This document shows, one piece after another, positions 3,281 to 48,167 of a stretch of DNA of 64,000 bases. The DNA lies in IMG/VR virus record IMGVR_UViG_3300023179_000098, positions 1 through 64,000 of that record. The stretch is one strand, 5' to 3'. Origin of the DNA: a virus. The notes below the pieces were generated by a model. The model was not told the origin of the DNA. It ran no database searches and saw only the letters and a list, made by a program, of their open reading frames with translations. Every line of letters starts with the position of its first letter. Positions within the stretch are counted from its first letter, which is position 1. The translations under genes and the position numbers were made by a program.

Positions 3281-3745
3281 ATGGCAATAAATACTAATAA
3301 AAGAATTGCAGTTAAATGGATTAGAGACAAGGCTAAGTCGGCCTATGAAAAGCAATCTCATTGCTATATATGTAACAGTACTAGTGAACTAGAATTACAT
3401 CATTTACATAGTATTACCTATTTGTTAGAAATTTGGGCAAAAGCTAATAACTATGATATAAGTACTGATACCGGAATACTTAGTGTTCGTGACGAGTTTA
3501 TTAGTAGCCACCATGAAGAAATATATAGCCTAGTATACACCCTGTGTAATAGGCATCATGTTCAACTACATGGAATATATGGTAAAAGTCCATTACCAAG
3601 TTCGGTTAGTAAACAACAGCACTGGATACAAGTACAACGAGAAAAACATATATCGGGATTAAGCAATTATAGAGGCAGCATGCCCCAGTCCAGTTCGTTT
3701 AGCGAATTTACAGGGGACTTAAGTGGCACTAGAAAAATTTCGTAG
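3281..3745 (+). CDS. HNH endonuclease-like protein
   Basis: A 154-residue protein with a His-Me finger signature: a Cys pair CYIC at residues 28-31, ELELHHLHS with the candidate catalytic His at 40-41, and a second cluster TLCNRHHVQLHG at 88-98 giving Cys89, Asn90 and His92/93/97. Such domains nick or cut DNA using one metal ion. HNH proteins next to terminase and portal genes are known to assist DNA cleavage during packaging in several HK97-like phages. That role fits here, but a free-standing homing nuclease is the alternative. Its last 23 bases overlap the portal gene in another frame, so it is an integrated part of the operon and not a recent insertion. Confidence 0.75.
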   Translation: MAINTNKRIAVKWIRDKAKSAYEKQSHCYICNSTSELELHHLHSITYLLEIWAKANNYDISTDTGILSVRDEFISSHHEEIYSLVYTLCNRHHVQLHGIYGKSPLPSSVSKQQHWIQVQREKHISGLSNYRGSMPQSSSFSEFTGDLSGTRKIS

Positions 3746-4910
3746 TTGGATTGTTGAAAAGCTAAATCCAGCACAACCTACTATACATTTCGATGAAGGC
3801 ACTAATATTAGTGGCGGTCATCGTATTCTATCTTATAGAAATGCTTTTCGAGCAATTGATAGTGTAAATAGATCAGTTAACATGATAGTTAGTGCATGTA
3901 GTTCACTAGACTATGATGTAAAAGACAAACAACATGATGGAGTAGTTAATGGTACTCGTCAAAAAAGTTTAGTTAATCTATTAAACTTTAGACCTAATCC
4001 CTATCAAAGTGCACAAGATTTTAGACGAGAAATATTTAAAGACTTACTACTAGATGGAAATGCATTTATACACTTTGATGGTGTATTTATGTATCACTTA
4101 CCAGCAGAAAATGTTGAGATTGTAACAGATCCTAAAACATTTATTCGTGGTTTTAAATACAGTGGTAATGTACTATTTCCCGAAAATGAAGTATTTTACT
4201 TTAAAGATGTTAGTTCTACAAGTATTTATCGTGGAACTAGTAGATTGGAAAGCTGTTTAGAGAATATTAATATACTCTATTCAATGCAAGAATTTCAACA
4301 AAAGTTTTTTGAAAATGGTACAATCTTTGGATTAGTACTTACATCGGAAAATACATTAAGTCAGCAAGCTAAAGAAAAAACCTTAGCTTACTGGCAACAA
4401 AGATATAATAGTAAAGCAGGCGGAAAAAGACCTATTATTCTTGATAGTGGCCTTAAACCACACAAATTATCAGACCAAAATTTTAGCGATTTAGATTTTG
4501 ACAAGGCTATACGTACCCATTCGGAGCGTATAATGATGAATATAGGAGTTCCTCCTGTATTACTACAAGGTGGTAACAATGCTAACATTGCCCCTAATTT
4601 ACGCTTATTTTACTTGGAAACAGTATTGCCAATTGTTAGGCTCTATATTTCCGCAGTTGAACGATATTTTGGATATGACGTGGAAGCGGTAACCAGTAAT
4701 GTATCGGCACTGCAACCAGATCTAAAAGATGTAGCAAGTTATCATCAAACACTAGTTAATGGTGGAATTATTACGCCAAATGAAGCTAGAGTAGAATTAA
4801 GGTATCCCAAGCTAGTAACTGGTGGAGATACTATTAGAATACCTGCTAATATAGCAGGTTCAGCAGCTGATCCATCGCAAGGTGGTAGGCCTAGTACGAC
4901 GAGGGAGTAA
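3723..4910 (+). CDS. portal protein, HK97 family
   Basis: A 395-residue protein that would form the dodecameric ring at the capsid vertex through which DNA enters and leaves. Segments typical of the HK97 gp3-like family are present: an N-terminal AIDSVNRSVNMIVSACSSL helix, SLVNLLNFRPNPYQSAQDF, DLLLDGNAFIHFDG near residues 102-116, and SERIMMNIGVPPVLLQGG towards the end. It starts with GTG at 3723 behind a purine-rich AGGGGA, inside the 3' end of the HNH gene. The tail is Ser/Thr/Pro-rich and unstructured. Its length is normal for the family. Confidence 0.95.
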   Translation: MALEKFRSWIVEKLNPAQPTIHFDEGTNISGGHRILSYRNAFRAIDSVNRSVNMIVSACSSLDYDVKDKQHDGVVNGTRQKSLVNLLNFRPNPYQSAQDFRREIFKDLLLDGNAFIHFDGVFMYHLPAENVEIVTDPKTFIRGFKYSGNVLFPENEVFYFKDVSSTSIYRGTSRLESCLENINILYSMQEFQQKFFENGTIFGLVLTSENTLSQQAKEKTLAYWQQRYNSKAGGKRPIILDSGLKPHKLSDQNFSDLDFDKAIRTHSERIMMNIGVPPVLLQGGNNANIAPNLRLFYLETVLPIVRLYISAVERYFGYDVEAVTSNVSALQPDLKDVASYHQTLVNGGIITPNEARVELRYPKLVTGGDTIRIPANIAGSAADPSQGGRPSTTRE

Positions 4911-4911
4911 T

Positions 4912-6981
4912 ATGACTAAAAAAATTGATAAATTACTCTATTTAAGCAGCAAGTTTACCGCTAGTACAGAAACTGACGATAGCATTTATATTGAAGGATA
5001 TGCTAGCACAGTAGACCGTGATAGACAAGGTGATGTTATTCCTATGAAGGCGTGGAATGAGGGGTTAAGTAATTACCTTAAAAATCCAATTATACTAGCC
5101 TATCACAACCATCAAATGCCTATTGGCAAGATGGTAGAACATAAAGTCACCGACCAAGGTTTATGGGTACGTGCCCAGATTCCTGCGGAAATAGGTGACG
5201 TTTATAAGCTGATTAAAAAGGGTATCTTAAGTGCGTTTAGTGTAGGATTTAGGGTTCGGGATGCTGATTATGACAGCGCCAGTGAATCTTTTCTTATCAA
5301 GGAGTTGGAATTACATGAAATTAGTGTAGTTTCAGTGCCAGCAAATCAAAACACATTATTTAGTTTGGCCAAAGCATTTGATAATGCACAAGAGTTTGAA
5401 TTATATAAACAGCAATTTGCACCCAAGGAATCAGCTAAACAGCTAGATACCCCAAAGCCAGCAAAAAGCACTAAAAACGAGGAATGGGACATGGATCCAA
5501 AAGAGTTAGAGAAATTATTAGCAGATGCTGCTGCTAAAGCTGCTGAGCAAACCGCAAAAGCTGTTTTAGAAGCACAAACAAAAGCTGCTGAAGACGCAAA
5601 GCGTAAAGTTGAAGAAGAAGAAGTTCTACAAGCTAAGATTAAAGCTGCAGTTAACGCAGTTCAGCCAGCTCCTGTAGTTCAAACAGTTGATACAGGTGCA
5701 GAGCGCCTACTAAGCGACATTGAAAAGCGCTTAGAAGATCAAGCTACTGAGCACAGAACAGCCCTAGAAGGTTTAGAGAGTGCTATTCGTGAAAAAGCTA
5801 AAGAGCTAGAAGCACTACAAAATAAGAGTGGTGAATTAGAAGCACTACAGCGTAGTCGTATGCAGTTTACTGAGCCACAAGGCCCAGAAATTAGCTATGC
5901 TGAAAAAGAAAAAGCTGTTTTAGTTAGTAAAATCTTACGTAGACCAATGCAAGACACCAAGTTCGGTAAGATTGTATTAGAAAAAGCTGCTGCTAGTTTT
6001 GGTGCTGCTGCACGTGGTCCTGTTATTGCTACAGGTACAAGTATGCAAGAGCTTTATGAAACTGAAGTAGTTACTAGACTAGAGAGTGAAATGCGTCGTC
6101 AATTAGTAGTTACAAGCGCATTAACAAGTACAACTATGACTACTCCTGTAATGCGTATTCCAGTAAATCCAGATACACAAGATAATGCTACTTGGATTAT
6201 AGGTGCTGGTGCAAATGAAGCTGCAGTTTATGGTACAGGTGCTGATAGTAGTTCAGTTTTAGCTACTGCTGGTAGTTCTGGTCTAACTAGAAGGCACGCA
6301 TTAAAAGAAATAACTCTTACCGCTTATAAATTAGCAACAAAAGAGTATATTGCTTTTGAAGAAGACGAAGACAGTCTAATTCCAGTACTTCCACTAGTTC
6401 GTGATGCATTAACTCGTCGCATGGCAAAATCATTAGATGTAGCTATGCTGCGTGGAGCAGGTAGTGCTTTAAGCACACCAATTAAAGGTTTAACTGAGTA
6501 TGATCCTGCTGGTGGTACTCCCTCAGTAACAATTAATGTAGCTAGTCCTGGCAATGTATTAACAGTAGCAAAAGTTATGGAAGCTCGTAAAAAATTAGAT
6601 GCTTGGGGTTTAAATCCAAGTGAACTAATTATTTTTGTTAGCACACAAGGCTACTATGAGTTATTAGAAGATACTAATTTCTTAACTGTTGATAAGGTAG
6701 GTGATCGTGCCACACTATTAACAGGACAGATTGGTAGTATTGGTAATACTCCTGTTATTGTTAGTGCAAGTTTTGCAGCAATTACACCTGCTAGTGGTCA
6801 ACCTACTGCAGTAATCTTTAATCCACGTAACTTCTTAGTAGGAACACATCGTAGTATGCGTATTGATAGTGATGATGAAATTGTGACACAACGTAGCGTA
6901 CTAGTTGCTAGTATGAGAGTTGGTATGACACAACTTTCAACAATTGATGGCGAGGGTGCCGTAACAGTAAGATACGCTTAA
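4912..6981 (+). CDS. fused prohead protease, scaffold and major capsid protein
   Basis: One frame of 689 residues joins two functions that HK97 encodes in separate genes. Residues 1-155 are an HK97-type prohead protease (S78/U35 fold): EGYASTVDRDRQGDVI, then ILAYHNHQMPIGKM with candidate catalytic His65, then LSAFSVGFRV with Ser110, then ELELHEISVVSVPANQN. Residues about 165-325 are Ala/Glu/Lys-rich coiled coil, corresponding to the scaffold or delta domain that is removed on maturation. The rest is the HK97-fold capsid protein, containing for example ELYETEVVTRLESEMRRQ and MRIPVNPDTQDNATWI. The ATG at 4912 follows GAGGGAG; an in-frame codon at 4882 lies within the portal gene and is less likely. 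A second, well-placed start at 5491 would yield the scaffold-capsid part alone. Confidence 0.93.
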   Translation: MTKKIDKLLYLSSKFTASTETDDSIYIEGYASTVDRDRQGDVIPMKAWNEGLSNYLKNPIILAYHNHQMPIGKMVEHKVTDQGLWVRAQIPAEIGDVYKLIKKGILSAFSVGFRVRDADYDSASESFLIKELELHEISVVSVPANQNTLFSLAKAFDNAQEFELYKQQFAPKESAKQLDTPKPAKSTKNEEWDMDPKELEKLLADAAAKAAEQTAKAVLEAQTKAAEDAKRKVEEEEVLQAKIKAAVNAVQPAPVVQTVDTGAERLLSDIEKRLEDQATEHRTALEGLESAIREKAKELEALQNKSGELEALQRSRMQFTEPQGPEISYAEKEKAVLVSKILRRPMQDTKFGKIVLEKAAASFGAAARGPVIATGTSMQELYETEVVTRLESEMRRQLVVTSALTSTTMTTPVMRIPVNPDTQDNATWIIGAGANEAAVYGTGADSSSVLATAGSSGLTRRHALKEITLTAYKLATKEYIAFEEDEDSLIPVLPLVRDALTRRMAKSLDVAMLRGAGSALSTPIKGLTEYDPAGGTPSVTINVASPGNVLTVAKVMEARKKLDAWGLNPSELIIFVSTQGYYELLEDTNFLTVDKVGDRATLLTGQIGSIGNTPVIVSASFAAITPASGQPTAVIFNPRNFLVGTHRSMRIDSDDEIVTQRSVLVASMRVGMTQLSTIDGEGAVTVRYA
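5479..5493 (+). promoter_or_regulatory. internal ribosome binding site and start for capsid protein
   Basis: GAGGA at 5479-5483 lies 7 bases before an in-frame ATG at 5491. The product would begin MDPKELEKLL and be 496 residues long, the normal size and opening of a free-standing HK97-type capsid precursor. It starts just after the protease domain and a low-complexity Lys/Pro/Ser linker. This suggests that most capsid subunits are made from the internal start and only a few copies carry the protease. Confidence 0.55.
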
Positions 6982-32862: not shown

Positions 32863-33468
32863 ATGACTCCTGGTAGAGTTAACTTAAGAATATATCAAGG
32901 TAGCACTTTTAGTCAAATGTTTAGATGGGAATCTAAAACTATAACTTATGCTACTATTCAAACAATCCAAAAATCAGCTCCTTGTGTAATAACCGTATTT
33001 CCTGGTCAGCCAAAACCACCACCTTCCTGGAGAGTTCGAATAACTGGTGCTAATGGTATGAAGGATATAAATTTAGATGGACTACCTGATCAATACTATA
33101 TAGTAAGTAATATATATTTAAATGATATTACTATTGATGAGATAAATAGTTTAAATTATGGTACTTATACTGGAAATGGGGCCTTAAGTTGGTACGAACC
33201 AGTACCACTAGGTAATTATACGGCTCAATTACAAATAAGAAAAAGTATTAATGATAGTGCTTTTGAGGTAGAATTAACCTCTGCAGCAGGTGAAATAATT
33301 CTAGATGATATAGATAAAACTATAGAAATAGTTATTCCTAAAACAATTACTTCTGGTCTCACTTTTAGTACCGGTGTATATAGTTTAGAATTAACTGATA
33401 CTATTACTGGAAAAACTATTACTTTTATACAAGGTAATGTTACTTTAATTAGAGAGGTTACACGATGA
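32863..33468 (+). CDS. virion protein preceding the collagen-like fibre
   Basis: A 201-residue beta-rich protein. The start GRVNLRIYQGSTFSQMF and the later LGNYTAQLQIRKSIND fit a common small phage protein that begins with a YQGATF-like strand and precedes fibre genes. Residues 60-110 are an insertion with VRITGANGMKDIN. Its stop overlaps the start of the first collagen-like fibre as ATGA, so the two are translated together. An adaptor or connector that mounts the fibre is the likely role, inferred from context. There is no enzymatic motif and no signal peptide. Confidence 0.65.
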   Translation: MTPGRVNLRIYQGSTFSQMFRWESKTITYATIQTIQKSAPCVITVFPGQPKPPPSWRVRITGANGMKDINLDGLPDQYYIVSNIYLNDITIDEINSLNYGTYTGNGALSWYEPVPLGNYTAQLQIRKSINDSAFEVELTSAAGEIILDDIDKTIEIVIPKTITSGLTFSTGVYSLELTDTITGKTITFIQGNVTLIREVTR

Positions 33469-36400
33469 CAACAACTAGTGAAACAAGTGTAGTTGTTGAA
33501 AGAGACTCTACCATAGTAATAACAGCCGGTTTAATGGGTGTACGTGGCTTACAAGGATTACAGGGTATTCAAGGTATTCAAGGTGGAGGATTTAATCAGA
33601 ATCAAGGAATACAAGGTTTGCAAGGTATACAGGGATTACAAGGTGATCAAGGTATACAAGGAGCAATTGGTCAAGGAATACAAGGTATTCAGGGATTTCC
33701 AGGTATTCAAGGTCTACTTGGACCACAAGGTGTAAGTATAAATATTAAAGGTAATGTACCTAATTTTGCAGGATTACCAACTGTAGGAAATAATTATGGT
33801 GATGGTTGGGTTTCCGAAGACGATTTAAAATTATATATTTGGGTATTTCCAGGAATATTTAGAGATGCAGGTCGTATAGTTGGTCCACAAGGTATTCAAG
33901 GTATTCAGGGCCGTCAAGGTATACAAAGTATACAAGGTATACAAGGTATTCAGGGTATTCAGGGTATTCAGGGTATTCAGGGTATTCAGGGTATTCAAAG
34001 TATTCAAGGTATTCAAGGTATTCAAGGTATTCAAGGTATTCAAGGGTTGCAAGGTACTTGGGGTATTGCTGGTGGATATACAGCAAGGTGGAAATTTACT
34101 AATTCAATGACAGGTTCTGATTCAGGTCCAGGATACGTTAAATTAGTTAACAGAGCTTGGACAGATACAACTCCTGGAACAGTGTCTATTATTGTTTCTA
34201 GACTAGATTATGACTTAGTTAATAATGCTAGATTTTTTGATTCTTTTTTAAATTTTGGTACGCCTGGAAATATACGCGGAATACTATCAATAGCTAAGTT
34301 ACAATCACCACAAGATAGATGGCAAGCTAAAGTTAAAAATGTATATAATTTTACTTCTGGTACTAATAATTACGTAGAAATAGAAACAGAATTTTTAACT
34401 AGTAGTGGAGGTGCTCCTAGTTTTGATGATATTCTTGCTATTACTTTTGCACCTACAGGTATTCAAGGCGTCCAAGGTATTCAAGGTATTCAAGGTATTC
34501 AAGGTATTCATGGCGATAATGGCGGAATACCTTATATTTTTAGTGATAATATTACTCCAATTACATTATCAAGTCCACCTTTAGGTAGTGGTTTAATAAA
34601 ATTTAATAATAATAGTATTGGTTCTGTTAATAAAATATATATTAGTAAATATACTTCTGATGCTACAGATGTACAAAGCTATATACTAACATGGGATAAT
34701 AGTACTTCTACTGAAAAAGGCGAAATACTAATTAAAAGTAATAATTTACAAGATGATACTCTAATAGTATTTACAGTAACTAATGTTGTAAATTATACAC
34801 TTCATTTAGAAATAGACGTTATCTATAGAAGCGGAGATCTACCAGATAATAATGAACGTTGTGCGGTAGAATTTTATAAAATTGGAGACAGAGGTAGTCA
34901 AGGACTACAGGGTATACAAGGTATACAAGGTACACAAGGTACACAAGGTACACAAGGTATAATTGGTATGCCTGGTGGTAGCAGTAAACCCTATTTTTGG
35001 GATTCAAACACTGTAAATTTAAACCCTGGCGTAGGTATAGTTAGACTAAGTCGTGCCTGGACAGATGTTACTGTTAGTGTAGCACAAATTTATATTAATT
35101 TTACTGATGCATCTTCAAACTCAAGTTATTCTTGGTTAAAAAATTTAGATAAATACGGATCTCCTGACGTTTATTACGGTACTATAACTTTGATGGAGGA
35201 AGGTCATTCTGACAAAAGATGGTATGGTAAGTTAATAAAGGTAGATGAAGATAGCACAGGATATTTTAAATTAGATGTATTATTTATAGATACAGATGGT
35301 GCTCCACCTACTAATAATAGTAAAGTTATTGTTTCATTTAATCCCGCAGGTATTCAAGGTATTCAGGGAATCCAAGGTATTCAGGGAATCCAAGGTATTC
35401 AGGGAATCCAAGGTATTCAGGGAATCCAAGGTATTCAGGGAATCCAAGGTATTCAGGGAATCCAAGGTATTCAGGGAATCCAAGGTAGAAGATTTACTCC
35501 TAAAGGCGTATGGAATTCAACATCAACATATCAGTACTTTGATATTGTACATTATAGAGGTAGTAATTGGTTAGTAAAAGATAATTTTGTTACTGAAACA
35601 CTAACTGCTGTAAGTATAGATCCAACAGGATTATTTACTTGTGCTCCCGTTAATTTAGCTGCTGGATTAAGGGTTAATGACAGAGTTTATATTACTGGTA
35701 GCAACGGTGGCGGCGGAACAGGTGCTATAACAGGATACGATCCTTTAGGAACTTATTATTATATTATTACAGTTCCTAATGCAACTACTCAATTTACATT
35801 AAGTACTACTATAGGGGGCCCACCAGTAACTACTGTTCCTGGTATATTAAGTAGTCCAATGACAATTGTACTTACTAGTGATATAGTACCTAGAGAAAGC
35901 GATTATTGGACATTATTGGTATCACAAGGTGTTCAGGGTACACAAGGTATTCAAGGTATACAAAGCATTCAAGGTATACAAGGACGTCAAGGTGTACAAG
36001 GTGCGGTTGGTATGGCTTTTAGAATTGCTCAAGTTTTTGTTAATAGAGCAGCTCTAATGAATCATGAAAATATTGGTGCCCCTTCTATAATACCAGGAGA
36101 ATTTGCGCTTATAAATAATCCGGATAAAAGTGACTTAGACGATAGTAAGTTATTTTTATGGACAGGACCCAAAACCGGAGGGGTTGGAGGATATGTAGAA
36201 GTTGGTGACCTTAGTGGTATGACTGGTTTAACAGGTCCACCAGGTCCAGCAGGTTCATCAGGTTCAGCAGGTGCACAAGGTCCTCGTGGTTTTGGTTATG
36301 ATCAACTACAAGGTGTACAAGGACCACAAGGTAGTGGTACACAAGGTCGTCAAGGTATACAAGGTATACAAGGTGGTGGATTTGATCAATTACAAGGACC

Positions 36401-37940
36401 TCAAGGACCTCAAGGCGAATCTGGTTCACAAGGTCGTCAAGGTGTTCAAGGGTTGCAAGGTCGTCAAGGTGTTCAAGGTGTAGCAGGTTATGGTATTAGT
36501 ATTAAAGGTGTTGTTGCAGACGTAGTTTCGCTTCCTGCCGGAGCCACAACTGGCGATGCCTATATTGTTAGTGATGATAATCATCTATATATTTGGGATG
36601 GTTCGATTTGGTTTGATGCAGGTCCAATAAGTGTACAAGGAATACAAGGAATACAAGGAATACAAGGATTTCAAGGTACTCAAGGCTTTCAAGGCTTTCA
36701 AGGTTTTCAAGGTGTTCAAAGTATTCAAGGTGTACAAGGTGTACAAGGACTTGGCGGAGCATACTTTGTTGCTCAAACTTTTACGGGACCAGCAGGACCA
36801 ACAGGATCTCAAGGTGCTACTGGTAATATAGGACCTCAAGGTACTACGGGTAATACAGGAGCTCAAGGTTTTAAAGGAGACATAGGGCCTGTAGGTATTC
36901 AAGGTTTAACAGGATTTGGAATAACTTGGAGAGGAGCATATACCAGTACTAGTGGTACAACTGTATTTGATAGTAATCATGCTGTTTATTATAATGGTGA
37001 TAGTTGGATAGCTAAACGTGGGACTGCTACTAGTGATCTTCTAGCTATAATGGAAGTACAAACCGGCGGCGTATTTAAATGTAATACTACAGTAACCCTA
37101 AATAATCCTAGCGGATTAAAAATTGGCGATAGAGTAACAATTACAGGTGCCCCAGTAGCTGTAGGTGGAGTCCAACCAATAGCAAGTGGTAATTATAACC
37201 CATCAGGACTTAATCATTATTATATAATTGCTACATCAGGAACACCAACCACAGAATTTATATTATCTGAATTTCCTAATGGAACGCCAATAGGAACAAA
37301 TGCAATTCCTCCTACCGGTACAACAGCACCAATAGCTTTTGGTGTAAGTTTTAGAGGTCCTACTGGTTTTTATGGTCAAGCACCTGTAGATGGTGGTATT
37401 TATTGGAGCAGAATGACTGCTCAAGGTATTCAAGGTATTAAAGGTGATCTTGGTTCACTTCCTACTGGTGGTGCCACTGGCGAAGCACTGGTAAAAGTAA
37501 GTAATGCAGATTATGATGTAACTTGGGGACCTGGTGGATCGGGTGGTGGTGGCGGAGTAACTAAATTAATATTTCGTTTAGATTATACTAATGCTGGTGC
37601 TTTAAATACTGTAACTAAAGTTAGTGGTCTTGGTAGCGCAATAATTAGTGGTACTCCTACTAATACTGCCTCAAAAATAGAAATAACATTATCTGGATTT
37701 ACATTACCACCAATTGGTATAATAGGTTATGGATATAACTCAACTAGTGGTTATCAACCAGTTTCTGTAGGTACGACCTTTTTAACAAGAAGTTTAATAC
37801 CAAGTACTGGAACTACACCTGACGCTTTTAGTGCATTTGATCCATCAATACATAAACTAACTTTAGATACTAGTCCAGGAATTTATGGTACATCTAATGC
37901 AGCAAATAGACATGCATATGTAATATTATATGGAGTATAG
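33465..37940 (+). CDS. giant collagen-like tail fibre 1
   Basis: A 1491-residue protein built from Gly-X-Gln triplet runs (GIQGIQ and variants) separated by globular modules. In order: a short N-terminal strand region; collagen; a GDxxxVSEDDLKLYIW module; long collagen; three related beta domains (nt about 34075-34460, 34520-34890 and 34985-35350); the 7-copy perfect repeat at 35358; a CBM5/12-like module with another domain inserted (35488-35930); a PGEFALINN module; collagen; a second interrupted CBM5/12-like module (36919-37430); and a C-terminal beta domain with a Gly-rich hinge. Collagen-type phage fibres form trimeric rods. The modules would be arranged like beads, with the CBM-like units offering polysaccharide contacts. 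The function is inferred from these modules. Confidence 0.9.
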   Translation: MTTTSETSVVVERDSTIVITAGLMGVRGLQGLQGIQGIQGGGFNQNQGIQGLQGIQGLQGDQGIQGAIGQGIQGIQGFPGIQGLLGPQGVSINIKGNVPNFAGLPTVGNNYGDGWVSEDDLKLYIWVFPGIFRDAGRIVGPQGIQGIQGRQGIQSIQGIQGIQGIQGIQGIQGIQGIQSIQGIQGIQGIQGIQGLQGTWGIAGGYTARWKFTNSMTGSDSGPGYVKLVNRAWTDTTPGTVSIIVSRLDYDLVNNARFFDSFLNFGTPGNIRGILSIAKLQSPQDRWQAKVKNVYNFTSGTNNYVEIETEFLTSSGGAPSFDDILAITFAPTGIQGVQGIQGIQGIQGIHGDNGGIPYIFSDNITPITLSSPPLGSGLIKFNNNSIGSVNKIYISKYTSDATDVQSYILTWDNSTSTEKGEILIKSNNLQDDTLIVFTVTNVVNYTLHLEIDVIYRSGDLPDNNERCAVEFYKIGDRGSQGLQGIQGIQGTQGTQGTQGIIGMPGGSSKPYFWDSNTVNLNPGVGIVRLSRAWTDVTVSVAQIYINFTDASSNSSYSWLKNLDKYGSPDVYYGTITLMEEGHSDKRWYGKLIKVDEDSTGYFKLDVLFIDTDGAPPTNNSKVIVSFNPAGIQGIQGIQGIQGIQGIQGIQGIQGIQGIQGIQGIQGIQGIQGIQGRRFTPKGVWNSTSTYQYFDIVHYRGSNWLVKDNFVTETLTAVSIDPTGLFTCAPVNLAAGLRVNDRVYITGSNGGGGTGAITGYDPLGTYYYIITVPNATTQFTLSTTIGGPPVTTVPGILSSPMTIVLTSDIVPRESDYWTLLVSQGVQGTQGIQGIQSIQGIQGRQGVQGAVGMAFRIAQVFVNRAALMNHENIGAPSIIPGEFALINNPDKSDLDDSKLFLWTGPKTGGVGGYVEVGDLSGMTGLTGPPGPAGSSGSAGAQGPRGFGYDQLQGVQGPQGSGTQGRQGIQGIQGGGFDQLQGPQGPQGESGSQGRQGVQGLQGRQGVQGVAGYGISIKGVVADVVSLPAGATTGDAYIVSDDNHLYIWDGSIWFDAGPISVQGIQGIQGIQGFQGTQGFQGFQGFQGVQSIQGVQGVQGLGGAYFVAQTFTGPAGPTGSQGATGNIGPQGTTGNTGAQGFKGDIGPVGIQGLTGFGITWRGAYTSTSGTTVFDSNHAVYYNGDSWIAKRGTATSDLLAIMEVQTGGVFKCNTTVTLNNPSGLKIGDRVTITGAPVAVGGVQPIASGNYNPSGLNHYYIIATSGTPTTEFILSEFPNGTPIGTNAIPPTGTTAPIAFGVSFRGPTGFYGQAPVDGGIYWSRMTAQGIQGIKGDLGSLPTGGATGEALVKVSNADYDVTWGPGGSGGGGGVTKLIFRLDYTNAGALNTVTKVSGLGSAIISGTPTNTASKIEITLSGFTLPPIGIIGYGYNSTSGYQPVSVGTTFLTRSLIPSTGTTPDAFSAFDPSIHKLTLDTSPGIYGTSNAANRHAYVILYGV
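33945..34043 (+). repeat. 9-bp tandem repeat coding Gly-Ile-Gln
   Basis: Eleven 9-base units of the GGTATTCAG/GGTATTCAA type lie in phase with the collagen-like frame. Five identical GGTATTCAG copies are followed by GGTATTCAA copies, and one unit at 33999 starts AGT, giving Ser in place of Gly. This is coding minisatellite DNA and not CRISPR: there are no spacers. Confidence 0.9.
35358..35483 (+). repeat. seven perfect 18-bp tandem copies in fibre 1
   Basis: An 18-base unit, GGTATTCAGGGAATCCAA, is repeated seven times without a single mismatch and encodes Gly-Ile-Gln twice per unit. Synonymous codons alternate inside the unit (GGT/GGG, ATT/ATC, CAG/CAA) yet are identical between units. This points to a recent expansion by slippage or recombination. 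Confidence 0.95.
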
Positions 37941-37942
37941 TT

Positions 37943-40900
37943 ATGGCTGTAATATCGTGGAAAACTAATGCAGCACAACTAGGAATTCCACCTAAAATTA
38001 TTAAAGGAACCGTAACACAAGTAGTGGGTAAAGACTTTTGGCTTTACCCCTATTCTCAAAACGATCAATTTTGGGCTGGTGGTGTTACTCCAAAATATTA
38101 TACATTTGTTATAACTTTTAGTATTACTCCTACCCAACATGAAAGTAGTTTAACTAGAATCGCTAATTACTATGATGGACTTGATATAGAAGTTGGTGAT
38201 TTTGTTGGTGGAATAACAAATAACAAATTTTTGCAAGTAACTGCAATACTAAATAAAAATAGTGATGAAATTGTTGCAGTATGTGAAGATAGATTAAGAT
38301 ATAATGCATTTTTATACCTAAATCCTAGTATAGACACTGGCGAAGATGTAATATTCTTTCAAATTAATGAAAGAGGACAGCCAATAGTAGACCCAGTACC
38401 AAATACAATTACTAGTGAAATTTTTAGTATAAGTCTAGCTAGCTATTTTCAATATTTAAATCCAGCTGAAAATTATTTATTAGAACAAGATAATCATAAT
38501 TTTAAAATTGGAGAACCTGTTAGTGTAGACAACGGCATATTTCAAAAAAGTAATAGTTCTAATATAGATAAATATATCGGTACAGTAACACAAGCAGGAC
38601 CCGGTCCTAATAAATTTTTATTAAGACCTAATAATGGTATAATTGATTATGTACCAGGACTTCCTGGTAATGTAGGTGACTTTATATTTTTAGATGATAC
38701 AACTGGAAATTTAGTTACTATATCTACTATAGAAAGAGCATTATTTATTAAGTTAGCTAATGCTATACCTACAAGTACATCAAGTGTTATAGCTAATATA
38801 GATGCTACTGATGGTGATGTAGTCAGAATAAATGGCGTAGATATTACACTTAATTCTTTAGGCGCAACAGCTCAAGTACCTATAACAGATATTATATTTA
38901 CAATAAATAATTATACTATTTATCATAATGTAACAGCAAGACAAATATGGAGACCAACTCAAACTATAACTGACTTTGCCCAAGTTACCGCTAGCTCTGG
39001 AGAAATATTCGCAAAAGTACCATTTATAGGGGTTATAAATGGTTTTTCTGTTTTATTTGATACACATATAAATGGTGATATTTATACAGCTACACCAGGT
39101 AATTTATTTGCTACAACAGCCGATTTAGCATATGATATTAATAGAGCAGGTATAGCCTATATAGAAGCTAGTGTTGGACCTTTAGGTGAATTAATACTAA
39201 CTAATACTGAAGGCGGTAATATTACCGTTTCTAATCTTTCTCCTAATCCTGATGGATTTACTTTTAAAGAAATAACTGGACTTTTTAGTGTAAATAATAC
39301 TTATACTGAGCAACTGCTATTATTATCAAGGGCTGATGGAGGGCCTATTATATTAGCAGATCTAGTAGGTAGTTATTTTAGTACAATAGATATTGATAGT
39401 ACTCAAAATGGTAGATATGCTTTAGGATTAAGAATAGAAGGTGGCGGTGGTTTAACTGGTTCTCAAGGTACAGCAGGTTGGCAAGGATTTCAAGGCATAC
39501 AAGGCATACAAGGCATACAAGGTATACAAGGAATTCAAGGTGGTGGATATAATCAAGCTAGTGGTACTCAAGGTGCTCAAGGTGGTCAAGGTACACGTGG
39601 ACCTATTGGATCACAAGGCTTAACTGGCGTTGGCGCAGATGGTTCACAAGGTCGTCAGGGTATTCAAGGTGCAACAGGTCAGGGCTTACAAGGAATACAA
39701 GGATATCAAGGCTATCAAGGTATACAAGGTATACAAGGTATACAAGGTATACAGGGCGAACAAGGTATACAAGGTGCACAAGGATTTGGTTATCAACAAA
39801 ATCAAGGTATACAAGGTATACAAGGTCCTGGTTCAGCCGGTGCAATTGGTTATACATATTATACGTATACTGGAGATGGTTTACAAGTACTTTTCTATGG
39901 AGGCCTTGGAGCCAATTTAGAAAATGTACTAGTAACATTAAATGGAGTTAGTCAAACTCCGGGTACTGATTTTGGTATATACTTAGATGAAGTAGTATTT
40001 ACAGTTGCTCCTCCTTTAGGTACAAAAATACTTATTAGACTATTAGGTGCCGAAGGTATACAAGGTACTCAAGGTACTCAAGGTACTCAAGGTTTTGGAT
40101 ATAAACAAAATCAAGGTATTCAGGGTATTCAAGGTTTACAGGGTATTCAAGGTATTCAAGGTATTCAAGGTATTGAATTTAGAGTATCTGCCGGATTACT
40201 TCCTCCTACATCTCCAAGAGTAGGAGATCTTTGGTGGGCTACTGATATAGCTGTAATGTTCTTTTACTATTTTGATGGTGATACTTATCAGTGGGTTACA
40301 GCTAATGTAGGTTCTAGTGGAATACAAGGTATACAAGGTGTACAGGGTTGGCAAGGCGTTCAAGGTATTCAAGGTGTTCAAGGTATTCAAAGTATACAAG
40401 GTATTCAAGGTATAAGTGGATCCGCTGTAGCAAAAGGTGACAGCATTGTTTGGAAAGGTATATACGATTCTGCTACTGCTTATGTATTAAATGATGCAGT
40501 TTATTATAATGGCGGTAGCTATATATTTGTAAATACTACAACTGCTACAGCACAACCACCTATAACTGGTACAACAGTAAATTCTACATATTGGAATCTT
40601 ATGACTGCTCAAGGCGTGCAAGGACGTCAAGGCGTGCAAGGATTTCAAGGCATACAAGGCGTACAAGGACGTCAAGGTATTCAGAGTATACAAGGTATAC
40701 AAGGTGTACAAGGATTCGGATCAGTTCTTAGAGGCTCGTATAGTTCAACAACTACTTATTATAAAAATGACATTGTTTTTTATATTGCAGATAGTTATGC
40801 CTATATTAATAGTACTCCTGCTGTTAATCAAACACCTATTATAACTGGATATGAACTTAGTTTATCTAATGCTGGATTTAATGCAGTAAATCAAACGTAT

Positions 40901-41650
40901 ACAAAAGATAGTGCTACTGTTTTTCAAGGAAGTGGTGGAGTAGTTATTGAAGAAGTTAGCGGTAGCTGGGAATGTAGATATGGAGGAGTAGTTTACTATA
41001 CTTCTACTGATTTAATAAATTGGACAGATATATTAGGAAATAGTCCAGCTCCTACCGGTACCTTATCTACTAGTGCTGGTGTTTTAAATACCGCATATTG
41101 GAGTAGATTGACTAAATATAGTCAAGGTATACAAGGTATACAAGGTATACAAGGTAGACAAGGCATACAAGGTGTACAAGGTTTAGCTGGAGATGCTTAT
41201 GTAGGAGCTCTTGTAAAAGGAGATGAAGGTAGGCAAGGCATACAAGGCATACAAGGTATGTACGGAACTGCTTTAAGTCCTAGATATACTAAAGTAGTTA
41301 CAACTACAACTTTAAATACAAATTCTGGTGTTAATATTGATGTTCCTGCATTTACTGGATATGCTATTTATAAGATAGAAGTTGATAGAGCTGCTTGGGT
41401 TCGTGTGTATACTGATAGTCTTAGTAGAACACTTGATCAAACTAGATTAGAAGCAAATGATCCAAGTTTTGATTCTGGTTTAATTGCTGAAATAATTACT
41501 TCAGGAGCAAGAGTTGTTACACTTATGCCAGTAGTACTAGGATTTAATGATGAAACCCCTCCACAAGAAATTATGCCTGTTAGAATAGTTAATAGAGGGG
41601 GTGCTGCTACTGTAACCGCTATTTTTACTATTATTAGAACAGAGATATAA
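37943..41650 (+). CDS. giant collagen-like tail fibre 2
   Basis: A 1235-residue protein. The first 500 residues are globular and beta-rich (ISWKTNAAQLGIPPKIIK, DFVGGITNNKFLQVTAIL) and probably attach to the virion. Gly-X-Gln runs then alternate with modules: a YTYTGDGLQVLFYGG domain (nt about 39850-40050), a PPTSPRVGDLWWATD unit (40190-40310), one plain CBM5/12-like module (40444-40605) and one interrupted CBM5/12-like module (40717-41120). The C-terminal domain (YTKVVTTTTLNTNSGVNI, AAWVRVYTDSLSRTLDQT, PVRIVNRGGAATVTAIF) resembles, from memory, a terminal domain found in cyanophage fibres. It lies between fibre 1 and the subtilisin-like protease, with only a few bases on either side. Confidence 0.9.
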   Translation: MAVISWKTNAAQLGIPPKIIKGTVTQVVGKDFWLYPYSQNDQFWAGGVTPKYYTFVITFSITPTQHESSLTRIANYYDGLDIEVGDFVGGITNNKFLQVTAILNKNSDEIVAVCEDRLRYNAFLYLNPSIDTGEDVIFFQINERGQPIVDPVPNTITSEIFSISLASYFQYLNPAENYLLEQDNHNFKIGEPVSVDNGIFQKSNSSNIDKYIGTVTQAGPGPNKFLLRPNNGIIDYVPGLPGNVGDFIFLDDTTGNLVTISTIERALFIKLANAIPTSTSSVIANIDATDGDVVRINGVDITLNSLGATAQVPITDIIFTINNYTIYHNVTARQIWRPTQTITDFAQVTASSGEIFAKVPFIGVINGFSVLFDTHINGDIYTATPGNLFATTADLAYDINRAGIAYIEASVGPLGELILTNTEGGNITVSNLSPNPDGFTFKEITGLFSVNNTYTEQLLLLSRADGGPIILADLVGSYFSTIDIDSTQNGRYALGLRIEGGGGLTGSQGTAGWQGFQGIQGIQGIQGIQGIQGGGYNQASGTQGAQGGQGTRGPIGSQGLTGVGADGSQGRQGIQGATGQGLQGIQGYQGYQGIQGIQGIQGIQGEQGIQGAQGFGYQQNQGIQGIQGPGSAGAIGYTYYTYTGDGLQVLFYGGLGANLENVLVTLNGVSQTPGTDFGIYLDEVVFTVAPPLGTKILIRLLGAEGIQGTQGTQGTQGFGYKQNQGIQGIQGLQGIQGIQGIQGIEFRVSAGLLPPTSPRVGDLWWATDIAVMFFYYFDGDTYQWVTANVGSSGIQGIQGVQGWQGVQGIQGVQGIQSIQGIQGISGSAVAKGDSIVWKGIYDSATAYVLNDAVYYNGGSYIFVNTTTATAQPPITGTTVNSTYWNLMTAQGVQGRQGVQGFQGIQGVQGRQGIQSIQGIQGVQGFGSVLRGSYSSTTTYYKNDIVFYIADSYAYINSTPAVNQTPIITGYELSLSNAGFNAVNQTYTKDSATVFQGSGGVVIEEVSGSWECRYGGVVYYTSTDLINWTDILGNSPAPTGTLSTSAGVLNTAYWSRLTKYSQGIQGIQGIQGRQGIQGVQGLAGDAYVGALVKGDEGRQGIQGIQGMYGTALSPRYTKVVTTTTLNTNSGVNIDVPAFTGYAIYKIEVDRAAWVRVYTDSLSRTLDQTRLEANDPSFDSGLIAEIITSGARVVTLMPVVLGFNDETPPQEIMPVRIVNRGGAATVTAIFTIIRTEI

Positions 41651-41651
41651 T

Positions 41652-43589
41652 GTGGAAAAAGAATATATTGTAATATTAAAAAATGCAGCAGATTTAGATC
41701 AATTCTATGAAGATATGGAATCTCGTTATGGTGATAACGAAATTCCTGCTAGAATTATAGAATGCGCTGCAAGAAGATCTACAAGCAGAAGTACACATTA
41801 TTATCTTACAGATGAAGAAGCAGAACAAATAAAAAAAGACAGTAGAGTTTTAGATGTAACTAGAATTATAAAAGATACTAAATCTAGATCGAGATTAACT
41901 GGTTTAAATTTTGATCCTAGACAAACTTGGAATTATTATTATCCTGCTATTGCAGGAGATAGTAGAAGTTATAGCGGCTGGAATAAATTAGAATTTAATA
42001 ATGATATATGGGAGCTTTTTCCTGGTAGCACTAATCCTAATTTAAAAGGAAAAAGAGGTGCCTTTTACGGTAGTCATGCTTGGGTAAACTGGGGCTTATT
42101 AAGATGTACAAAAAGAGCTCAAATTCCTAATTGGGGATCAGATGGAAACCCAGAAGTATTTGAATCTATAGAATTAGGTGTACTGGGAGAAAATGTTGAT
42201 GTAATAATAGCAGACGGATTAGCCGATAAAAACCATGTAGAATTTAAAATTAATGTTGATGGAACAGGTATAAGTTCTAGATACAAATATTATAATTGGT
42301 TTTTACATAATTCTACTGTTAGAGGTATAACTAGTACTGAGTTTCCAAATTATAGTATTACAACTCCACTTGCTATAAATGCCGAAAATGATCATGGTAC
42401 TATGGTTAGTTCAATAGTTGCTGGAAATACTTGTGGATGGGCTAGAAAAGCTAATATTTATAATATTCCTTTTAATGATTATTGGTTAGGCTGGTATTAT
42501 AATCCTGGTAACAGTGCTGGATATGAGTATGATGTAATTAATTATATAAGAGAATTTCATAGATATAAGCCAGTAAATCCAATAACTAATCGTAAAAATC
42601 CTACCATTGTTAATATGAGTTATGGTTATGCATTACCCACTGATATGGATTCATATCAGCATATTTGGTTTATGAACAAAAAATATAGTAGACCAGGAAA
42701 TAGTTGGATAAATATTAATGGTAAACTAGATCTGACAGCAAGATTTAAATTTGGTTTAATAGATGGTTATGCTGATTTAAATGAAAATTTTATATTCTAT
42801 GCTACAAGAGTTCCTACTATTGATCAAGATATTATTGATGGTATAGCCGAAGGCATTATATTTGTAGCTGCTGCTGGAAATTCGTATAATTATGTAGATA
42901 TACCAACAGGTGCTCATTATAATAATAGATTAGTTATTTCTAATGAAACTACTTTTACTGACGATCAATACTTTCATAGAGGCGCTAGCCCTGGAGCTTG
43001 TCCAGGAGTAATTATGGTTAGTGCCGTAGACTGTACAAAAGTAGAAAGAAAAGCAAGTTTTAGTTGTGCCGGACCTAGAACCAGTATATTTGCACCAGGT
43101 GTAGGAATTACTGGAGCTGGAGTAGGAGCTTATGCTTATGATGAAAAAGAAAGTACTATAGATACAAGAACTGCTCAATTAGATAGTTCTGGAAAGTTTA
43201 TACCTAAGCCTCCATTTACTCAAATGCAGTATAAAACTAGAGCGCCTGGAACCAGTTTTGCATGTCCACAAGTAACAGGTGTTTTAGCTTGTATACTGGA
43301 AGCATATCCTACACTTAATCAAGCACAAATAACAGCTAAAATGCTTGAAATGGCTACTAAAAATCAATTATTAAATGAATCACCAGCATTTAATCCCAGT
43401 TATTCAAATACGCATTTTGGAAGAACTAATACAACAACATATGGTGCTCCTAATTTATATTTAGGATATGTTTCTCCAGCAGTAAGCCAAGCCGCCTCAG
43501 CTACACAAAAATTTCCTAAATCTAATAATGGTATTAGAAGCAGTGATGGACAAACTTGGCCTAGAGCTAAGTTTTATAGACAATCTTAA
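41652..43589 (+). CDS. subtilisin-like serine protease (S8) with I9-like propeptide
   Basis: A 645-residue protease with a complete subtilase triad: Asp188 in VDVIIADGLAD, His248 in ENDHGTMVSSIVAG and Ser535 in APGTSFACPQVTG, plus the oxyanion Asn410 in VAAAGN. Residues 1-75 (YIVILKNAADLDQFY, then HYYLTDEEAEQIKKDSRV) look like an inhibitor I9-type propeptide that folds and then silences the enzyme until it is removed. There is no signal peptide, so it acts in the infected cell or as a virion part. A large insertion lies between the His and Asn motifs. The start is GTG at 41652, one base after the fibre 2 stop. Fibre processing or digestion of host surface protein are the two plausible roles. 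Confidence 0.92.
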   Translation: MEKEYIVILKNAADLDQFYEDMESRYGDNEIPARIIECAARRSTSRSTHYYLTDEEAEQIKKDSRVLDVTRIIKDTKSRSRLTGLNFDPRQTWNYYYPAIAGDSRSYSGWNKLEFNNDIWELFPGSTNPNLKGKRGAFYGSHAWVNWGLLRCTKRAQIPNWGSDGNPEVFESIELGVLGENVDVIIADGLADKNHVEFKINVDGTGISSRYKYYNWFLHNSTVRGITSTEFPNYSITTPLAINAENDHGTMVSSIVAGNTCGWARKANIYNIPFNDYWLGWYYNPGNSAGYEYDVINYIREFHRYKPVNPITNRKNPTIVNMSYGYALPTDMDSYQHIWFMNKKYSRPGNSWININGKLDLTARFKFGLIDGYADLNENFIFYATRVPTIDQDIIDGIAEGIIFVAAAGNSYNYVDIPTGAHYNNRLVISNETTFTDDQYFHRGASPGACPGVIMVSAVDCTKVERKASFSCAGPRTSIFAPGVGITGAGVGAYAYDEKESTIDTRTAQLDSSGKFIPKPPFTQMQYKTRAPGTSFACPQVTGVLACILEAYPTLNQAQITAKMLEMATKNQLLNESPAFNPSYSNTHFGRTNTTTYGAPNLYLGYVSPAVSQAASATQKFPKSNNGIRSSDGQTWPRAKFYRQS

Positions 43590-43607: not shown

Positions 43608-46600
43608 ATGCCAGCTATAAATTTTCCAAATAGTCCAATTAATGGTCAAACTTTTACTGTTGCTGGTATAACTTATACCTATGACTCATATTATCCAAGA
43701 TGGGTAGCAAGTGTTGCTAGAGGTATTCAAGGTATTCAAGGTATTCAAGGTATCCAGGGTAGTCAAGGAATTCAAGGACGTATTGGTCCACAAGGTATTC
43801 AAAGTTTACAAGGTATACAAGGAATTCTAGGACGTCAAGGTATTCAGGGTATTCAGGGTATTCAAGGGCGTCAAGGTATTCAAGGTAATCCAGGTGAAAG
43901 AGGTCCTACAGGCGTATTTTCTATAACCAGAATTTATAGTACTAGAGCTGCATTAGAATCAGATACTAATCCACAGAAAGCAGTATTAGTATCTATGATT
44001 CCAGGAGAGTTTGCAATAGTCAAAACCACTTCTATTAGCGATCCTGATAATGGTAGAGTATATTTATGGTTAGGACCTCCCGGAGGAGCTAATTGGCTAT
44101 TCATTGGTAGTATTTTTTCAATGATTGCTTTGCAAGGCCTTCAAGGTATACAAGGTCCAAATGGTCCTATTGGAACACAAGGTTATGAGGGTCCAGTAGG
44201 ACCTCCTGGTCCTGGAGCAGATCCAGCAAATACTGGTAGTAGTATTATTCCTATTGCTGATGGTGTTTATGACTTAGGCAGTCCAACAAAAAGGTTTAAG
44301 TCATTATATTTAAAGCCTAGTACAATTTATCTTGGTGATACTAGTATTAGTATTAGCCAAAACGGTAGTTTGTCTGTTACACCGGCAGGTTCAGTTGAAC
44401 CAATTAATGTTAGCGAAAATATAGTAACTAGTAGTACACAACCATCAAACCCTAAAGAAAATTTACTATGGTTTAATACTGCTAATACAAAATTATATGT
44501 ATATTCTGCTGGAAACTGGATAGTAATTCAAGGTAGTGATGGTGCTCAAGGTGATTTAGGTTTACAAGGCGCAACTGGGTTTGAAGGACCTCAAGGTGCT
44601 AGAGGTTTTACTGGATCACAAGGTATTCAAGGTGAACAAGGTATTCAAGGTGAACCTGGTATTCAAGGTGATTTAGGTTTACAAGGTATACAAGGACCAG
44701 GCGGAGAATATTTTGTTAGTGCAGCTTATACTGGTCCAGAAGGTCCACAAGGTATTCAAGGCACTCAAGGTGATCAAGGTATACAAGGACCAGGCGGAGA
44801 ATATTTTGCAGCTGTAACTTATACTGGTCCAGAAGGTCCACAAGGTATTCAAGGCACAGAAGGTGCTCAGGGTATAGAAGGTGCTCAGGGTATAGAAGGT
44901 GCTCAAGGTTTTGACGGAATACAAGGAATTGCAGGAGAATTTGCAGCACAAGGCGTTCAAGGCGAACAAGGCGTTCAAGGCGAACAAGGGCCTCAAGGTA
45001 TACCAGGAGACGAAGGTGTACAAGGTATAAGAGGTATACAAGGTGCAAAAGGCGAATTTTTTGCTATAGAAACTTATACTGGACCTCAAGGTATACAAGG
45101 TATACAAGGTGAATCTGGTATTCAAGGACTAGATGGTTTGGGTACACAAGGTATCCAAGGTGAAATAGGTATTCAAGGGGCTCAAGGATATAGTTATTTA
45201 TACAGTTCATTAAATTATAGTCAAACAAAAGAAGCATTTCCAATAGTATTTGATAATTTAATGACTCTACCAATAGATATAGTTACATGTCAAATAACTA
45301 CAACAGGTAGCCCAGTTCAGATTATTGTTCAAAGTGAAGTAATATTTACCTTACTAACCGGCGATCCAGCAAATACAGAAGTAAATATTTATAGAGATAA
45401 TACAGAATTAAATCAATTAACAACTGTTTCTTCTTATAGTACTGGTATTAGTAATCCATTTGCAGTACAAATTATTGATAATCCTCCTACAGGCACTTAT
45501 ACATACTCATTAAAAATTAAAAGTATGTTAAATGCTTCTCAGGTTAAATTTGGCAAAATTACAGGACCAGTAATAAGTGTAGTAGAATTACATAATGTTC
45601 AAGGTACACAAGGTGTACAAGGTTTTGGATATCAACAAAATCAAGGTATACAAGGTATACAAGGAATACAAGGCCAACAGGGAATACAAGGTGATCAAGG
45701 TATACAGGGTATACATGGTATCAAAGGAGATACTGGATTAGCTTTTACAATTGCTAAGGTATATACTAGTGTAGCTACATTATTAGCAGATACTGCTCCT
45801 ACAAATATAATAGAAGGACAGTTTGCAATTGTAGATACTGGAGATGCTAATAACGTAGATAATAATCGATTATATCTATGGAATGGTGTTAATTATCAAT
45901 TTATTACAGATTTAAGTGGTTCTGCTGGTATTCAAGGTATACAGGGAGAACAAGGTATACAAGGTATACAAGGTATACAAGGTATACAAGGTATACAAGG
46001 TATACAAGGCTTACTAGGATTTCAAGGTACTCAAGGTATACAAGGTGAGCAGGGTACTCAAGGTGTACAGGGTACACAAGGTTTATTAGGATTTCAAGGT
46101 ACTCAAGGTACTCAAGGTATACAAGGTGAGCAGGGTATACAAGGTGAGCAGGGTATACAAGGTATACACGGCTTACTAGGATTTCAAGGTACTCAAGGTA
46201 TACAAGGTGAGCAGGGTATACAAGGTGAGCAGGGTATACAAGGTATACAAGGTATACAAGGTAGTCAGGGTATTCAAGGTGAGCAGGGCATACAGGGTAC
46301 TCAAGGAGAAGCTGGAGTACAAGGTTTAGACGGAATTATTGGTGGCCAAGGTACTCAAGGTACTCAAGGTGAACAAGGTACTCAAGGTGTACAGGGTACT
46401 CAAGGTGTACAGGGTACACAAGGTTTATTAGGATTTCAAGGTACTCAAGGTATACAAAGCGAACAAGGTATTCAGGGCATACAAGGCGAACAAGGTATTC
46501 AGGGTATTCAGGGTATTCAGGGTGTTCAAGGTACTAAGGGAGAAACTGGACTAGCTTTTACAATTGCTAAAATATATACCACTGTAGCGTCTTTATTAGC

Positions 46601-48167
46601 AGATACTTCGCCATCTAGTATTTTACCAGGACAATTTGCTATTGTAGATACTGGTGATTCTAATAACTTAGATAATAATAGATTATATCTATGGAATGGT
46701 GTTAATTATCAATTTATTACAGATTTAAGTGGTTCTGCTGGTATTCAAGGTATTCAAGGCACTCAAGGTATTCAAGGCACTCAAGGCGAACAGGGTATAC
46801 AGGGTATAATAGGACCACCAGCATTATGGAATTTTACTGGTGCATATAATCCAGGAGCTAGTTATGCTGTTGGAGATTTAGCCACTTATGAAGGTCAAAC
46901 TTGGTATAGACTTAATTCAAATGGCGGAAATGTTGGCGATACACCTAGTGAAGGAACTTTTTGGACCAAAATTGCATCAGTTGGATTGCAAGGTACACAA
47001 GGTACACAAGGTACACAAGGTGAACAGGGTATTCAAGGTGCTCAGGGTATTCAAGGTGCTCAGGGTATTCAAGGTGCTCAGGGTATTCAAGGTGCTCAAG
47101 GTATTCAAGGTGTTCAGGGTATTCAAGGTGAACAAGGTACTCAAGGTACTCAAGGTACTCAAGGTACTCAAGGTACTCAAGGTACTCAGGGTACTCAAGG
47201 TGCTCAGGGTACTCAAGGTGCTCAGGGTATTCAAGGTGAACAGGGTATTCAAGGTGAACAGGGTGTACAGGGTGTACAGGGTGAACAGGGATTACAAGGT
47301 GAAAAAGGTTTATCTGGACAATTTGCTGGTCAAGGTATACAGGGTATTCAAGGTGAACAGGGTATTCAAGGCACACAGGGTATTCAAGGTGAACAAGGTA
47401 TACAGGGATTACAAGGTGAAAAAGGTTTATCTGGACAATTTGCTGGTCAAGGTATACAGGGTATTCAAGGCGTACAGGGTGTACAAGGCACACAGGGTAT
47501 TCAAGGCATACAGGGATATTTAGGCTATCAAGGTATACAGGGTTCTCAAAGTGTACAAGGTATACAAGGTATTCAAGGTATACAGGGTGTACAGGGTGTA
47601 CAAGGTATACAGGGTTCTCAAAGTGTACAAGGCGTACAAGGCGTACAAGGCGTACAAGGCAATTTAGGTGCTCAAGGTATTCAGGGTTCCCAAAGTGTAC
47701 AAGGTATTCAAGGTATACAGGGTTCTCAAAGTGTACAAGGTATACAAGGTATACAGGGTTCTCAAAGTGTACAGGGTATACAGGGTGTACAAGGTATACA
47801 AGGCAATTTAGGTGCTCAAGGTATTCAGGGTGTAGGAACAACTATTAGAGTAGTAACAGTCGGTGATGCTACAAGTATTACTCCAAATGGTGATATTACA
47901 GATATGGTATATCAATCTAATAGTCAATCCGCAGGAACTTTAAATATAAATGCACCTACAGGAACACCTAGTGATGGTCAAAGATTGATGTTTAGAATAC
48001 GTAGTGTTAATGTTCAAACTTATTCTTGGAATGGTATTTATCAAGGAAGCCTAGACGTTACATTACCAACAGCTTCTAGTGGAGGCAATAAGTGGGATTA
48101 CTATGGATTTATCTATAATACAATAGCTGCAAAATGGCAACTACTAGCTAGAATGACTGGATTTTAA
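43608..48167 (+). CDS. giant collagen-like tail fibre 3
   Basis: A 1519-residue protein, the richest in collagen triplets. The N-terminus (INFPNSPINGQTFTVAGI, then YDSYYPRWVAS) is a typical phage fibre attachment segment. Modules between the Gly-X-Gln runs are a PGEFAIVKT unit, a YDLGSPTKRFKSLYLKPS strand repeat with an NLLWFNTANTKLYVY unit, a beta domain (nt 45190-45600), two near-identical FAIVDTGD units (about 45734-45925 and 46548-46740) and a short CBM5/12-like module (46828-46980). The last run has five SQSVQG interruptions where Ser replaces Gly. The C-terminal domain (MVYQSNSQSAGTLNINAP, then KWDYYGFIYNTIAAKWQL) is probably the tip. It follows the protease by 18 bases. Confidence 0.9.
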   Translation: MPAINFPNSPINGQTFTVAGITYTYDSYYPRWVASVARGIQGIQGIQGIQGSQGIQGRIGPQGIQSLQGIQGILGRQGIQGIQGIQGRQGIQGNPGERGPTGVFSITRIYSTRAALESDTNPQKAVLVSMIPGEFAIVKTTSISDPDNGRVYLWLGPPGGANWLFIGSIFSMIALQGLQGIQGPNGPIGTQGYEGPVGPPGPGADPANTGSSIIPIADGVYDLGSPTKRFKSLYLKPSTIYLGDTSISISQNGSLSVTPAGSVEPINVSENIVTSSTQPSNPKENLLWFNTANTKLYVYSAGNWIVIQGSDGAQGDLGLQGATGFEGPQGARGFTGSQGIQGEQGIQGEPGIQGDLGLQGIQGPGGEYFVSAAYTGPEGPQGIQGTQGDQGIQGPGGEYFAAVTYTGPEGPQGIQGTEGAQGIEGAQGIEGAQGFDGIQGIAGEFAAQGVQGEQGVQGEQGPQGIPGDEGVQGIRGIQGAKGEFFAIETYTGPQGIQGIQGESGIQGLDGLGTQGIQGEIGIQGAQGYSYLYSSLNYSQTKEAFPIVFDNLMTLPIDIVTCQITTTGSPVQIIVQSEVIFTLLTGDPANTEVNIYRDNTELNQLTTVSSYSTGISNPFAVQIIDNPPTGTYTYSLKIKSMLNASQVKFGKITGPVISVVELHNVQGTQGVQGFGYQQNQGIQGIQGIQGQQGIQGDQGIQGIHGIKGDTGLAFTIAKVYTSVATLLADTAPTNIIEGQFAIVDTGDANNVDNNRLYLWNGVNYQFITDLSGSAGIQGIQGEQGIQGIQGIQGIQGIQGIQGLLGFQGTQGIQGEQGTQGVQGTQGLLGFQGTQGTQGIQGEQGIQGEQGIQGIHGLLGFQGTQGIQGEQGIQGEQGIQGIQGIQGSQGIQGEQGIQGTQGEAGVQGLDGIIGGQGTQGTQGEQGTQGVQGTQGVQGTQGLLGFQGTQGIQSEQGIQGIQGEQGIQGIQGIQGVQGTKGETGLAFTIAKIYTTVASLLADTSPSSILPGQFAIVDTGDSNNLDNNRLYLWNGVNYQFITDLSGSAGIQGIQGTQGIQGTQGEQGIQGIIGPPALWNFTGAYNPGASYAVGDLATYEGQTWYRLNSNGGNVGDTPSEGTFWTKIASVGLQGTQGTQGTQGEQGIQGAQGIQGAQGIQGAQGIQGAQGIQGVQGIQGEQGTQGTQGTQGTQGTQGTQGTQGAQGTQGAQGIQGEQGIQGEQGVQGVQGEQGLQGEKGLSGQFAGQGIQGIQGEQGIQGTQGIQGEQGIQGLQGEKGLSGQFAGQGIQGIQGVQGVQGTQGIQGIQGYLGYQGIQGSQSVQGIQGIQGIQGVQGVQGIQGSQSVQGVQGVQGVQGNLGAQGIQGSQSVQGIQGIQGSQSVQGIQGIQGSQSVQGIQGVQGIQGNLGAQGIQGVGTTIRVVTVGDATSITPNGDITDMVYQSNSQSAGTLNINAPTGTPSDGQRLMFRIRSVNVQTYSWNGIYQGSLDVTLPTASSGGNKWDYYGFIYNTIAAKWQLLARMTGF
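47285..47470 (+). repeat. 69-bp direct repeat inside fibre 3
   Basis: Bases 47285-47353 recur at 47402-47470, offset by 117 bases, and include the non-collagen phrase GLQGEKGLSGQFAGQ. Recombination between the copies would delete or add exactly 39 residues without changing frame. Confidence 0.85.

Follow-up and report, generated by a model that had tools for sequence, protein, structure and literature searches.

A protease–capsid fusion gene with a conserved putative internal start for a protease-free capsid precursor

T5-like phages (Demerecviridae) encode their prohead protease (pb11) and major capsid protein (MCP; pb8) in two consecutive genes, and in ten such phages the TAA stop of the protease gene lies 3–17 nt upstream of the MCP ATG; in JSF10 the stop is positioned in frame between an AAAGGA sequence and the MCP start. 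The T5 MCP has an N-terminal scaffolding domain that is removed by the protease, and T5 proheads contain 775 copies of MCP (PMC5292684). A second arrangement is found in the NCBIfam family NF045541, in which the protease and MCP are fused; its members include PAJU2 (where the product is annotated as 'prohead protease fused capsid protein'), JLK-2012 and E. coli prophages. Phages require hundreds of shell subunits and few proteases, and a fusion seems to impose a one-to-one ratio. We found no published precedent for a protease–MCP fusion with an internal start, although our search covered few subscription journals and is weak evidence of absence.

The 64,000-nucleotide stretch analysed here (the window) comes from an IMG/VR virus record of 69,333 bases (IMGVR_UViG_3300023179_000098), and has the same gene order as T5, protease then MCP, but in one continuous open reading frame (ORF). 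A mechanical ORF list opens this frame at a GTG at 4882 (699 aa), but the ATG at 4912 is preceded by a Shine-Dalgarno (SD) sequence, GAGGGAG, and agrees with the starts in relatives, indicating that the full-length protein is 689 aa rather than 699. The SD for this start is below -5 kcal/mol in 90% of representative relatives. The main features are:

4901–4907, + strand: SD of the full-length start, GAGGGAG, read from the sequence (dG -8.0)
4908–4910: TAA stop of the portal gene, between the full-length SD and the ATG at 4912
4912–6981, + strand: fused ORF of prohead protease, delta (scaffolding) domain and MCP, 689 aa, with Pfam and NCBIfam matches above cut-offs
4963–5364, + strand: Peptidase_S78 domain, residues 18–151
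5491–5985, + strand: predicted delta domain with two coiled-coil helices, its end set by alignment with mature T5 pb8
5986–6978, + strand: predicted mature HK97-fold capsid part, T5 pb8-like, from profile alignment and Foldseek

Elsewhere in the window, an ORF between the terminase and portal genes (3281–3745) resembles an HNH endonuclease by eye, and one in the tail gene region (41652–43589) resembles a subtilisin-type serine protease, also by eye. Collagen-like GIQG repeats mark three very long ORFs (33465–41650 and 43608–48167), which are probably tail-associated.

The protease part is by profile match an HK97 family prohead protease, scoring 68.7 bits against the Peptidase_S78 profile (cut-off 21) and 79.7 bits against TIGR01543 (cut-off 59), and the HK97-type MCP profile TIGR01554 matches at 40.3 bits (cut-off 27.5). 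The AlphaFold2 model of the fusion (mean pLDDT 66, which is moderate) has a beta-rich protease domain at residues 8–140, an unstructured segment at residues 169–195 (pLDDT under 50), helices at 196–248 and 263–317 predicted with moderate confidence as expected of an N-terminal helical delta domain, and an HK97 fold after residue 329. The top Foldseek matches of the capsid part are the capsids of DT57C and T5, its closest solved homologs, and mature T5 pb8 aligns from about residue 360 in a profile search, from which we infer the delta-domain cleavage site. Since the delta helix begins at residue 196 and T5 pb8 aligns downstream of it, an ATG at 5491 sits at the expected beginning of a stand-alone MCP precursor.

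The first-pass annotation of this DNA had singled out that codon, proposing that GAGGA with a 7-base spacing and an in-frame ATG at the protease–scaffold boundary would yield a 496-residue, capsid precursor-like product. The letters are as it described, the boundary coincides with the first predicted helix of the delta domain, and the predicted product consists of a delta domain followed by an HK97-type MCP:

5479–5483, + strand: internal SD, GAGGA, in codons 190–191, with a conserved AGGA core
5491–5493, + strand: ATG at codon 194 of the fusion, the putative internal start, in frame with the ATG at 4912
5491–6981, + strand: predicted internal product, an MCP precursor of 496 aa lacking the protease and beginning MDPKELEKLL

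Seven nucleotides, ATGGGAC, separate the SD from the ATG, and the signal has the form of a nested gene, an in-frame internal start giving a co-terminal protein without the protease. However, the genes of the window contain 222 in-frame internal ATGs, 11 of which have upstream sequences whose pairing with the anti-SD is equal or better, so in a single sequence the signal is only moderately unusual and is suggestive at best; SD strength moreover tells little of initiation rate.

Comparison with relatives is more informative. Scans of IMG/VR yielded 222 full-length fusions, the window included; junction peptides were among the patterns used in some scans, and scans without them gave the same result. 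None of 50,697 annotated phages compared reaches 60% identity, and a search of bacterial genomes found no close relatives. The codon aligned with the ATG at 5491 is ATG in 221 of the 222 and TTG in the other (L156), and the reading frame is single and open throughout, including the variable linker, in all but L156. L156 further carries a stop codon in frame within its delta domain, and the two changes reflect either decay or sequencing error. Upstream of the start the codons are GAG GAA, AAG GAA, AGG AAA or AGG GAA, such that the amino acids vary while AGGA or AGGG is retained; among 99 representatives AGGA is present in 98 and AGGG in the remaining one. In L196-type relatives an inserted codon alters the spacing and the ATG is nonetheless kept. 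Among the conserved in-frame ATGs an SD precedes codon 194 alone; it is below -5 kcal/mol in 78 of 78 members of one set, compared with ≤5% at the other ATGs. By these comparisons, conservation of the signal is far beyond chance. An initiation signal is not lacking at 5491, both the SD and the ATG being present and conserved.

Selection acts on the nucleotides themselves. In a tree of the 99 representatives (<92% nucleotide identity, with the junction left out of tree building), residue 190 switched among E, K and R at least 13 times, whereas its third base, the G of AGGA, changed 0 times. Codons 190 and 191 have the fewest third-base changes among 51 E/K/Q columns (0; median 11), as do codons 175, 174, 186 and 184 among 115 small-residue columns (0–2; median 21), and of the 118 columns with variable amino acids in the 78-member set only 177 and 190 invariably end in G. 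Synonymous constraint in sliding windows of 11 codons reaches its maximum of 1.54 at the junction and is ≤1.26 elsewhere (mean 0.98, sd 0.10); the 28 highest-scoring windows (starts 164–191, together spanning codons 164–201) are, bar one neighbour, all at the junction. The most constrained RNA thus encodes a variable and predicted unstructured segment of the protein, and the constraint extends well upstream of the SD:

5407–5508, + strand: stretch where synonymous constraint peaks within the ORF (about codons 166–199), in the disordered, amino acid-variable linker
5431–5447, + strand: conserved hairpin UCAGCUAAACAGCUAGA, with six pairs kept in 99 of 99 representatives
5461–5469, + strand: GCA-AAN-AGC, with nearly invariant third bases

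The hairpin (17 nt; consensus UCAGCUAAANRGCUNGA) can form six pairs and one bulge, and 31 nt separate its 3' end from the internal SD downstream; it includes codon 177, one of the two columns always ending in G. One pair is U-G in 76 representatives and U-A in 23, and the bulge (third base of codon 178) varies freely, having changed at least 13 times. No pair has changed on both sides, so the support for the hairpin is constraint rather than compensatory covariation. A pairing partner for GCA-AAN-AGC was sought and none was found, and neither the hairpin nor the junction motif has an exact copy elsewhere in the window. This additional upstream constraint, in the hairpin and GCAAANAGC, indicates that selection acts on more than an SD, and the hairpin possibly has a regulatory role. 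We do not claim an ancestral hairpin in the T5-like phages, in which stem-loops upstream of the MCP gene vary and may be codon-driven.

Because the constraint begins about 25 codons upstream of the start and takes in the hairpin, the segment could be mainly some other cis element, such as an mRNA processing site, an operator or a promoter, with an SD and an ATG inside it by coincidence. We consider this very unlikely: constraint on the SD and ATG falls precisely on the positions used in initiation, no sigma-70-like promoter was found at the junction, and an Rfam search of the element gave no match. Such an element may instead coexist with an internal start rather than replace it.

The position of the internal start is also that of a genuine gene start in split relatives. 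The MCP start in T5-like phages lies at the boundary homologous to the ATG at 5491, and loss of a T5-type protease stop would give the fused arrangement with the MCP start untouched. In the NF045541 family, which shares the fused architecture but is distant in sequence (its profile requires 525 bits and the window reaches 50, which leaves it outside the family), a start codon and SD-like sequence are likewise present at the junction in 14 of 14 fused members examined, the codon being ATG (GTG in Arsenophonus) and the weakest SD -4.3 kcal/mol (L295); such signals are commoner by chance there, with 21% of in-frame ATGs in these ORFs reaching -5 kcal/mol. Two further members, L299 and L300, have a separate MCP gene that starts at the position homologous to the fused junction start, and fused and split states therefore coexist in this family. 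In L299, L300 and L302 the protease ORF ends near residue 195–210. From the sequence distance between them, the two fusion families probably arose independently. The second family, of which L285 (2483–4420) is an example, has prophage copies in 1246 of the 5426 complete E. coli genomes, mostly annotated plainly as 'phage major capsid protein'.

If the fusion were instead the sole product, every MCP would bear a protease that is freed by self-cleavage, and the internal start would be a relic. No intact member has a stop in the frame across the junction, and the herpesvirus protease does cut itself from its scaffold (PMC12474303). A relic would be expected to drift, however, whereas the junction is the part of the ORF most constrained at synonymous sites, and one protease would be made for each of hundreds of subunits (775 in T5; PMC5292684); we give this explanation very little credence. 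It is similarly improbable that the SD-like sequence, although exactly at the predicted domain boundary, serves only to slow ribosomes and let the protease fold ahead of delta-domain synthesis: pausing needs no start codon, yet the ATG is kept even where spacing is shifted, matches by homology the genuine MCP start of relatives with split genes, and recurs as ATG or GTG in the second family. Release of the protease by frameshifting was rejected, as there is no conserved slippery site (GCAAAAAGC vs GCAAATAGC).

We favour the interpretation, with a probability of roughly 0.87, that this is a protease–MCP fusion with two translation starts and two co-terminal products, which arose from adjacent genes when the protease stop codon was lost and the ribosome-binding site and start of the MCP gene were retained. 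Support for a nested start giving a protease-free precursor, as the first-pass annotation proposed, comes from nucleotide-level selection on the SD, start codon and upstream hairpin, the agreement of the start with the delta-domain boundary, the homology to the T5-like MCP start, and the recurrence in a distant fusion family. Ribosomes starting at 4912 would make protease–delta–MCP, and those starting at 5491 would make delta–MCP, equivalent to a normal HK97/T5-type capsid precursor and presumably the bulk subunit. Both would co-assemble through their delta and capsid parts, the fusion thereby supplying the prohead with a restricted amount of protease, after which the protease would remove the delta domains and presumably itself. 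That an internal start would correct the stoichiometry of the fusion is a sound inference.

The junction start would account for how protease–capsid fusions stay workable, and annotations of 'one capsid protein' would become two products; the prediction is directly testable in culturable phages such as PAJU2 and with E. coli reporters. More tentatively, and with rather less than an even chance in our estimation, the junction could be a regulated initiation module in which the ratio of plain MCP to protease–MCP, or its timing, is governed in cis by the hairpin and GCAAANAGC, which might work as a standby site or as an operator bound by a protein, and a retained internal MCP start could be a general rule for phage protease–capsid fusions, the phage counterpart of herpesvirus UL26/UL26.5.

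The parallel with lambda C/Nu3 drawn in the first-pass annotation is fair functionally, in that translation from an internal in-frame start inside a protease ORF yields a co-terminal, protease-free product, but it does not extend to the product, which in lambda is a separate scaffold and not the MCP; nor is lambda C an S78 protease fused to an MCP. By analogy of function the closest parallel is herpesvirus UL26/UL26.5, where a protease–scaffold fusion is accompanied by an abundant co-terminal, protease-free product. The herpesviruses differ in being non-phage systems in which the protease is joined to the scaffold and not to the MCP, and the short form has its own transcript. The scaffold derived from the herpesvirus fusion is about 10% (PMC12474303), and the comparison suggests that phages may employ the same solution as the herpesvirus protease–scaffold gene.
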